From Candidatus Woesearchaeota archaeon (GTDB lineage Archaea; Nanobdellota; Nanobdellia; Woesearchaeales; GW2011-AR4): DNA of 38,886 bases. The position numbers and the translations under genes are program-made. The DNA is taken from positions 1-38,886 of the forward strand of contig JACPJP010000021.1 of the NCBI GenBank assembly GCA_016187495.1, written 5' to 3'. The notes under the pieces are model-generated. The model saw only the letters and a list, made by a program, of their open reading frames with translations. It made no database searches and was not told the origin of the DNA. This document shows, in pieces, positions 10,896 through 28,508 of this stretch (position 1 is the first letter of the stretch; every line of letters starts with the position of its first letter).

Positions 10896-11009
10896 GCGGA
10901 CAATATTGATTTCACATTAGTTGTCCGCTCCTAATAAGCAAAAGACGTATCTATTATGTTAATTTTGTGTCTTTTGCTATCTGCGCTATATAAGGCAAAA
11001 ACGCCTTAT
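10896..11009. repeat. Cluster of three perfect stem-loops upstream of hef
   Basis: GCGGACAA/TTGTCCGC (10896-10928), AGCAAAAGAC/GTCTTTTGCT (10937-10978), ATAAGGC/GCCTTAT (10990-11009). Confidence 0.85.
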
Positions 11010-11143
11010 TATTATTTATTTTTATTGAATAAACATATTGTTGGGAAAGATAGATTTATTTTTACTTTTTTATTATTAAAGTGTTTTGTGTAGTTTTAAT
11101 GGAATTAGTTTGTTGTACATGTGAATTTTACAAACACGCAATA

Positions 11144-17082: not shown

Positions 17083-17453
17083 GTGTCTAAAAAATCACTT
17101 CGCGGGTTGGCACATGAAAATTGAAATGGTGTTTTTGTTTTTATTTTTTTGATTCGGCATTTATGTTTTTACAATAAAATTTATTTTTAATAATTCGAAA
17201 AATTTCTCACTTCCCTTGCAAAAGGAATTTTTGTCTTCTTGTTTTTGTGCGCAACAATACTAAGCTGCGTTTTTGCAATCTGCTTGTTACATAAGGCAAA
17301 AACGCCATATTATTATTAATTGTTATCATTGAATTAATATCCTTGTTGTGAATCTGATATTGCTTAACATTTTAACTAGTAGGTTGGTTGTGTGGTTTAA
17401 TGGACTTGTTTTATTGTCTTAATAATTGATGCTAACCTTCATTTTTTAGACAC
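17083..17453. mobile_element. Candidate MITE or decayed insertion element bounded by 13-bp perfect inverted repeats
   Basis: GTGTCTAAAAAAT (17083-17095) and ATTTTTTAGACAC (17441-17453); flanking TAATGG at 17073-17078 and 17461-17466; no ORF inside. Confidence 0.5.
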
Positions 17454-24163: not shown

Positions 24164-24625
24164 ATGTCAACAAACAGAATTAAAAATCCAGAAGGGCAGA
24201 ACCTGGATAAACTGCGACCAAAAAACAGTTTAAGCCTCAGGGGGAGGACATTTATAGGCACAGTAATATCCGCTAGAATGCAGAAGACTGTTACAGTAGA
24301 ATGGGAAAGAAAGCATTTCCTCAAGAAGTATGAAAGATACGAGAAAAGGAAGAGCAAAGTCAAGGCTCACAATCCGGAAAGTGTTAACGCTAAAGAAGGC
24401 GATGTTGTCAGAATCAAGGAATGCAGGCCAATAAGCAAGACAAAGAATTTCATTGTTGTTGAAGTCATGGGAAAGGAAAAAGGCTTTAAGGAAAGAATGG
24501 AGGCTGAGGAGGAATCTAAAGCAAGAAAGCCTGCAAAAGAAGAAAAGGCAAAGGAAGAGAATGTTAGGATGAAGCCCAGCAACCGCTCCGTCGGAAATAC
24601 TGGAAATACAGAGGGGGAAGACTAA
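24164..24625 (+). CDS. rps17: Ribosomal protein uS17 with charged C-terminal extension
   Basis: LRGRTFIGTVISARMQKTVTVEWERKHFLKKYERYEKRKSKVKAHNPE. Confidence 0.96.
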   Translation: MSTNRIKNPEGQNLDKLRPKNSLSLRGRTFIGTVISARMQKTVTVEWERKHFLKKYERYEKRKSKVKAHNPESVNAKEGDVVRIKECRPISKTKNFIVVEVMGKEKGFKERMEAEEESKARKPAKEEKAKEENVRMKPSNRSVGNTGNTEGED

Positions 24626-27878: not shown

Positions 27879-28508
27879 ATGACACAGATAAAAGAACTTT
27901 TGGAGATAAGGGAAAGAATCAAAAGCAAAAAGCCGAATTTTATCAGGCAGGATATCCGCAAGAAAGCGAGGCTGAAAATAAAATGGAGAAAACCCAGGGG
28001 CTTGGATTCAAAGATAAGGCGAAAGCTCAGCGGAAGGGCAAATCCGGTTTCCCAAGGATACAGAAGCCCAAAAAATGTTAGGGGGTTGCATAAAAGCGGA
28101 CTGATGCAATCTATGGTCAGGACAACAAAAGATATGGATAAGTTGAATCCAAAGGAGAATTGCCTTATGATATCCTCCTCGTTGGGAACTAAAAAAAGAA
28201 TTGAAATCATTAAAAAAGCCAGAGAGAAAAAATTCGAGATTGTAAACATAAAGAGTCCAGAGGATTATATTAAAAAGGTTGAGGAGATTATTAGCTCAAG
28301 AAAAAAAGCCAGAAAGGAATCAGATGTAAAGCAAAAGGCCAAAGAGGTAAAGAAGGAGGAGAAAGAGACAGTGAGCGAAGATGATAATGCTCGGACTTCG
28401 TCCGGTACGCGAACGAAGTTCGGTATCCCGCAAGGGGACACCCACTCCGTGGGAAAAGAAGCAGAGAAAAAAGAGAAAGACAGACTTTTGACAAAAAAGG
28501 AGATATAA
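27879..28508 (+). CDS. rpl32e: Ribosomal protein eL32 with C-terminal extension containing a hairpin-array insertion
   Basis: KPNFIRQDIRKKARLKIKWRKPRGLDSKIRRKLSGRANPVSQGYRSPKNVRGLH. Confidence 0.96.
   Translation: MTQIKELLEIRERIKSKKPNFIRQDIRKKARLKIKWRKPRGLDSKIRRKLSGRANPVSQGYRSPKNVRGLHKSGLMQSMVRTTKDMDKLNPKENCLMISSSLGTKKRIEIIKKAREKKFEIVNIKSPEDYIKKVEEIISSRKKARKESDVKQKAKEVKKEEKETVSEDDNARTSSGTRTKFGIPQGDTHSVGKEAEKKEKDRLLTKKEI
28391..28453 (+). repeat. 63-nt in-frame run of four mini-hairpins inside rpl32e
   Basis: CGGAC-ttc-GTCCG (28392-28404), CGAAC-gaa-GTTCG (28410-28422), TCCC-gcaag-GGGA (28426-28438), CCCAC-tcc-GTGGG (28441-28453). Confidence 0.85.

Follow-up and report, generated by a model that had tools for sequence, protein, structure and literature searches.

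A very small palindromic repeat inserted in frame in protein genes of Woesearchaeota

The palindromic elements of Rickettsia (RPE) and their counterparts in Wolbachia are repeats that lie both between genes and in frame in conserved housekeeping genes, at tolerated positions, and their mobiliser is unknown (PMC2229807, PMC3767692). How protein-coding palindromes move and why they are tolerated in essential genes have been open questions since the discovery in Rickettsia. Archaeal palindromic elements with coding potential have been reported in Methanocaldococcus jannaschii (Suyama, Lathe and Bork 2005, cited in PMC2996958 and PMC2229807); as far as the citing papers describe them, they resemble the element reported here in being archaeal palindromes in frame in protein genes. 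REP/BIME sequences are also small, dispersed, non-autonomous bulged hairpins, but they are mainly extragenic, whereas the Woesearchaeota element commonly lies within gene bodies. The mitochondrial double-hairpin elements of Allomyces and other eukaryotes are small dispersed mobile units of two adjacent GC-rich hairpins. They share this layout with the Woesearchaeota unit but are mitochondrial, and no shared sequence has been demonstrated; to our knowledge, systematic in-frame insertion into core proteins is not typical of them.

The element is in kind a protein-coding palindromic repeat: a hairpin-forming dispersed palindrome that lies in frame in unrelated genes and also between genes. Like RPE, it is palindromic, both intergenic and in-frame genic, and without an identified mobiliser; it differs in size, architecture, self-nesting and host. 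RPE are about 100-150 bp long (84 bp in one listed case) and are modelled as long stem-loops, whereas the Woesearchaeota unit consists of 33 or 39 nt in two short abutting hairpins, a size that excludes an RPE proper. Unlike RPE, it nests within itself and belongs to an archaeal order, and no sequence relation between the two has been demonstrated. A scan of a genome-contig collection with a stringent exact pattern gave no Rickettsia among the matches listed. We found no description of the family in Woesearchaeota or DPANN in the open literature, subscription papers being mostly outside the scope of the search.

Architecture and dispersal of the eL32 insert

The window (the whole stretch of DNA analysed, 38,886 nucleotides) is contig C15 of a 778-kb archaeal genome, G000, which is 67% complete. 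In the named collections, its congeners and the other members of the family are MAGs of Woesearchaeota or 'Nanoarchaeota'. Several G000 contig ends (C1, C3, C6, C7, C9, C12, C13 and others) have about 141 nt in common with another contig, as expected of assembly k-mer overlap.

The mobile unit consists of two abutting hairpins. HpA is TGC-T-CGGAC-NNN-GTCCG-GCA (20 nt, with longer variants of about 20-26 nt) and HpB is CCAAC-TNC-GTTGG (13 nt). The features of the eL32 locus are as follows:

27879..28508, + strand: host gene, ribosomal protein eL32, 209 aa (open reading frame; Pfam PF01655, E = 5e-32, residues 18-123)
28388..28453, + strand: inserted composite element, 66 nt = 22 codons, an outer unit interrupted by an inner unit; boundaries set by homology and clean empty sites
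28388..28405, + strand: outer unit, 5' part of HpA, TGCTCGGACTTCGTCCGG
28406..28438, + strand: inner unit, 33 nt, TACGCGAACGAAGTTCGGTATCCCGCAAGGGGA, HpA TAC-G-CGAAC-GAA-GTTCG-GTA plus HpB TCCC-GCAAG-GGGA
28439..28453, + strand: outer unit, 3' part, CA foot of HpA plus HpB CCCAC-TCC-GTGGG
28392-28404, + strand: hairpin CGGAC-TTC-GTCCG, in the 5' part of the outer unit
28410-28422, + strand: hairpin CGAAC-GAA-GTTCG, extended by TAC/GTA to 28406-28425
28426-28438, + strand: hairpin TCCC-GCAAG-GGGA
28441-28453, + strand: hairpin CCCAC-TCC-GTGGG

The insert lies in the Lys/Glu-rich C-terminal tail of eL32. An earlier, sequence-only reading had described four hairpins spanning 63 nt, or 21 codons. 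All four are present on the + strand and open in the eL32 frame, where the insert encodes ARTSSGTRTKFGIPQGDTHSVG. The size needed correction to 66 nt and 22 codons (the peptide given in that reading itself has 22 residues), and the supposed array of four is really two nested two-hairpin units of 33 nt, the outer one (28388-28405 plus 28439-28453) being split by the inner. The inner unit has the same length as a free intergenic 33-nt unit of the same genome, and their first 23 nt are identical but for one base. The insert is GC-rich, as had been noted (58% versus 36% for the genome).

The locus is the only cluster of at least three such hairpins in the 778-kb genome, and shuffled genomes contained 0-1 each. 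Clustering alone is therefore only modest evidence, the site being unusual but not extreme, and by itself it would not exclude that GC-rich hairpins arose by chance in a low-complexity tail that evolves fast, or through an assembly artefact. The decisive evidence against chance came from further copies. Using blastn against the genome itself, we found a second full copy on C10 (E = 7e-25, 91% DNA identity), together with six short matches covering the second hairpin only. The C10 copy lies in the C-terminal tail of Rpo7 and encodes VRTKSGTRTKFGIPQGDTHSAG; a third, diverged copy (E = 7e-22) lies on C26 in the acidic N-terminal region of FtsY and encodes ARTTSGAQTQFGISQGDTPSVE. All three have identical strand and frame. 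Near-identical in-frame copies in three unrelated genes, and a family with covarying stems in many independently assembled genomes, make chance or artefact a negligible explanation, and the dispersed copies rule it out.

The first-hairpin loop is TTC in eL32 and its reverse complement, GAA, in Rpo7. In the FtsY copy, two stem pairs are altered on both sides (A-T to G-C and C-G to T-A), which is weak alone with three sequences only; HpA2 and HpB are partly decayed. Since the three copies share the same inner junction, the 66-nt composite of 22 codons arose once and then spread whole.

The insert was absent from eL32 in all four congeners with a readable C-terminus (in a fifth, the gene runs off the contig), and the Rpo7 and FtsY inserts were each absent from the three congeners with the gene present. 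Conservation of the segment in the eL32 of relatives, with no other copies, would have refuted a mobile element; it failed on both counts. A further candidate in the window is weaker:

24561..24596, + strand: candidate decayed copy in the C-terminal tail of uS17, NVRMKPSNRSVGN, in the same frame (nhmmer E = 0.66)

The uS17 tail of this genome is longer than in five congeners, and another genome, G052, has a clear copy in its uS17 tail.

Empty sites and self-nesting

Three kinds of site could be compared with empty versions. An intergenic repeat of the window genome occurs in five copies as GGCAAAAAA or AGCAAAAAA, followed by TACTCGAACGAAGTTCGGTATCCACTGCGTGGA and then TAATCC, and in two further copies (on C22 and C1) as GGCAAAAAATAATCC. 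Filled and empty versions thus differ as GGCAAAAAA + 33 nt + TAATCC versus GGCAAAAAATAATCC, without target duplication. In uL1, genome G016 has AAAGAAG + TGCCAGGACGAAGTCCGGTGCCAACCGCGTTGG + AAAAACC where its congener G009 has AAAGAAGAAAAACC; the uL1 of G009 carries a 33-bp insertion of its own elsewhere in the tail, differing in both position and frame. In uS13, a 39-nt unit of G001 is nested in an older unit, and G003 has the older unit without the nested one. Each of the three is a precise insertion of HpA plus HpB without target duplication. Within a gene, a unit adds 11 codons (33 nt) or 13 codons (39 nt). An IS-derived MITE was rejected because of the missing duplication, and because each end is formed by a hairpin of its own instead of by terminal inverted repeats.

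Flanks were A-rich where tested; position -1 is A in 81% and position +1 is T in 61%. We regard A at -1 as a preference and not as a proven target, since the -1 base may belong to the detection alignment.

More units nested inside the HpA of an older unit, some by several steps, were seen in other genomes (L146, L154, L159, L169 and L197). The intergenic units of G000 (on C7, C12, C21, C22 and C31; L006-L010) are embedded in a longer repeat, also dispersed and roughly 250-300 nt in length, whose ends (CACAACCA... and ...GTGAGCAT) are conserved and which contains an inverted repeat, TTTTTTGC/GGCAAAAAA. This longer repeat is a second intergenic repeat family, unrelated to the hairpin unit.

The family, its reading frame and its host proteins

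Scans with the exact eL32 and Rpo7 peptides gave zero matches in genome-contig and viral-contig collections, because the long composite is specific to the window genome; structure-aware models alone revealed the family. A covariance model (R1) built on the eL32, Rpo7 and FtsY copies and run over 118 relatives brought in shorter elements of about 39 nt, AATGCTCGGACTACGTCCGGCACCAACTCCGTTGGNAAA, encoding NARTTSGTNSVGK. With a second model, R2, we obtained matches in 25 of 353 genomes of the order, up to at least about 10 per genome. Matches to a third model, R3, were confined to the same order in 378 genomes drawn across the class. Only the best 16-18 candidates per genome were scored in these searches, R3 included, which limits their sensitivity. 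No known RNA family in Rfam was matched.

A few matches were rejected. Two viral-contig pattern matches (a GSGTNFVG motif in a 185-aa open reading frame, without HpA) were judged to be chance, as were, probably, genome-contig matches in Marinobacter, Paucibacter and a 'bacterium' MAG. A match in G149 proved to be a conserved FtsZ GTPase-domain motif read backwards.

Over 86 matches, 94% of stem cells were paired (HpA outer TGC/GCA, bulged T and inner CGGAN/NTCCG; HpB CCAAC/GTTGG). Altered cells on both sides numbered 88, compared with 23 ± 3 in shuffles (none of 500 reached 88) and at most 15 in slid controls. The shuffle figure cannot be read as a p-value, since the sequences are related to one another and their alignment was fitted to the structure model; comparison with the slid controls is safer. 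The suggested likeness to in-frame palindromic elements of the Rickettsia kind is thus borne out by dispersed copies in the genome (Rpo7, FtsY) and its relatives, empty congener sites, including the four readable eL32 tails, the covariation of the stems, clean insertions of 33 bp at other sites and a reading frame shared by unrelated hosts. We consider it highly likely that the eL32 segment is an in-frame mobile palindromic element, although an insertion has yet to be observed within a single strain.

About 27 supported in-frame copies are in phase 0, in which the insert encodes roughly NARTxSGTNSVGK; peptides encoded in the open frame include FGIPQGDTHSVGK and TTSGTNSVGK. Three copies are in phase 2: in uL1 of G016, in uS4 of G002 and, judged by inspection, a nested one in a Mur ligase of G002. 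Taking these as 30 independent events, sense orientation (30/30) and phase 0 (27/30) are both far from even. This test depends on which open reading frames were checked. Ten non-sense or other-frame ORFs were screened with Pfam for antisense coding. Overlaps with RIO1 and HSP70 were rejected because they fall right at the beginning of the frame, probably upstream of the start codon. One possible antisense case remains unresolved, L157, where a unit lies in antisense orientation within the C-terminal portion of an HhH-GPD ORF of G002. This locus (on C141) and L158 (on C29 of the same genome) are 60-nt units that are nearly identical and share their flanks.

So strong a bias in strand and frame could reflect selection for the peptide and not tolerance. 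If the peptide NARTxSGTNSVGK or the mRNA hairpin pair served in regulation or as a binding motif, copies would be kept for that function, as might also be suggested by a TtuA-like site filled in two genera, where the stem has decayed and the peptide is partly kept. The filled site in two genera implies that some copies are old. We nevertheless hold a selected function to be improbable. The phase-2 copies read as unrelated, LGxxxFPAPTxL-like peptides, so that the element does not depend on any one peptide; many units lie between genes; no common feature links the hosts; and the FtsY and eL32 copies differ by seven amino-acid-changing and three silent codons, which shows that conservation of the peptide is not tight. 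Among the stop-free frames of the 39-nt consensus, phase 0 gives the most polar peptide. This fits selection for harmless inserts, and selection for function remains possible.

The hosts identified by Pfam comprise, besides eL32 and Rpo7, the ribosomal and polymerase proteins uS17, eS6, uL1, uS4, uS13 and Rpo1; the enzymes dihydroorotase, PMM/PGM, RsmB/F methyltransferase, metallophosphoesterase, UppS, PfkB kinase and XPD helicase; a glycosyltransferase, a polyketide-cyclase-like protein, MetAP, a small-domain methyltransferase, GatE and ABCE1; and a GCV_T protein, STT3, ScpB and FtsY. The sequence-only reading had suggested that such an element may be tolerated in non-essential tails. This does not hold, since many sites are inside enzyme domains, and copies interrupt the catalytic domains of dihydroorotase, UppS, ABCE1, GatE, XPD and PMM. 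Against solved structures, the ABCE1 insert is an 11-residue gap (3j15, 3bk7) just after the Walker A region, the GatE insert is a 10-11-residue gap (1zq1, 2d6f), and UppS and dihydroorotase also show gaps at the insert. All four inserts lie in segments that are variable between homologues.

Positions within conserved domains near active sites, as in ABCE1, together with the precise boundaries and the paired two-hairpin fold, would suit a mini-intron excised from RNA, leaving proteins without the insert. Excision, however, requires neither an open frame nor a length divisible by three, yet all 29 supported genic copies (27 in phase 0 and two in phase 2) have both. Length divisible by three was found in only 38 of the 52 other elements (p = 0.0014), so that 14 lack it. 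With no known RNA family matched in Rfam, we regard a mini-intron as very improbable. That the insert is translated is inferred from the open frames and the lengths divisible by three, in the absence of mass spectrometry.

The in-frame mobile element accounts for odd inserts in core proteins of Woesearchaeota (ribosomal proteins, RNA polymerase, ABCE1, UppS), which could mislead alignments and phylogenies.

Movement and selection

In our reading, the Woesearchaeota element is a selfish piece of mobile DNA, very small and non-autonomous. Precise duplication-free insertion, dispersal, nesting and covarying hairpins are shown by the comparisons above. Its mode of movement can only be inferred. 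On one of the strands, most hairpin loops match C(GNA)G, a motif with which DNA can form unusually stable mini-hairpins. The element may move as a folded single strand with two such stable mini-hairpins, mobilised in trans by an enzyme that has not been identified. Movement as single-stranded DNA, taken alone, is a possibility that we put forward with less than even confidence.

One candidate mover is a RAYT/IS200-IS605-like Y1 (HUH) transposase acting on a REP-type palindrome. Bulged hairpins, single-strand folding potential, absence of target duplication and dispersed non-autonomous copies would all fit on general grounds, and Y1 transposases occur in 16 of 34 genomes tested. Their distribution does not follow that of the element: PF01797 is absent from the element-rich G000, G001, G010 and G013 and present in match-free genomes such as G015, G017 and G025, with the reservation that these are incomplete assemblies. 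We found no transposase gene in association with an element, and the flush two-hairpin unit differs from the REP layout. We therefore consider this origin unlikely.

Whatever the enzyme, insertions that break genes would be purged by selection, so that genic survivors would be in frame, mostly in the most polar, turn-forming frame (NARTxSGTNSVGK), and loops and tails may tolerate this polar, turn-forming peptide. The full proposal is that a self-nesting 33-nt unit, which would rank with the smallest of mobile DNA elements, travels in the form of folded single-stranded DNA by means of an as-yet-unknown enzyme and steadily adds 11-13 codons (at least 22 when nested) to essential proteins across an archaeal lineage; as a whole it remains tentative. 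Exact units, duplication-free empty sites, dated nesting and independent insertions into the same gene in different frames make mechanism and selection separately testable.

Genome G010 contains several near-identical intergenic units, CCTGCTCGGAAGCGAGCTTCCGGCATCCACTGCGTGGACTAC (L186-L191), which suggest a recent amplification, judging from their similarity alone. In the window, a 39-nt direct repeat at 10987-11025 and 17288-17326 is 90% identical, with a small palindrome, AAGGCAAAAACGCCTT, in each copy.
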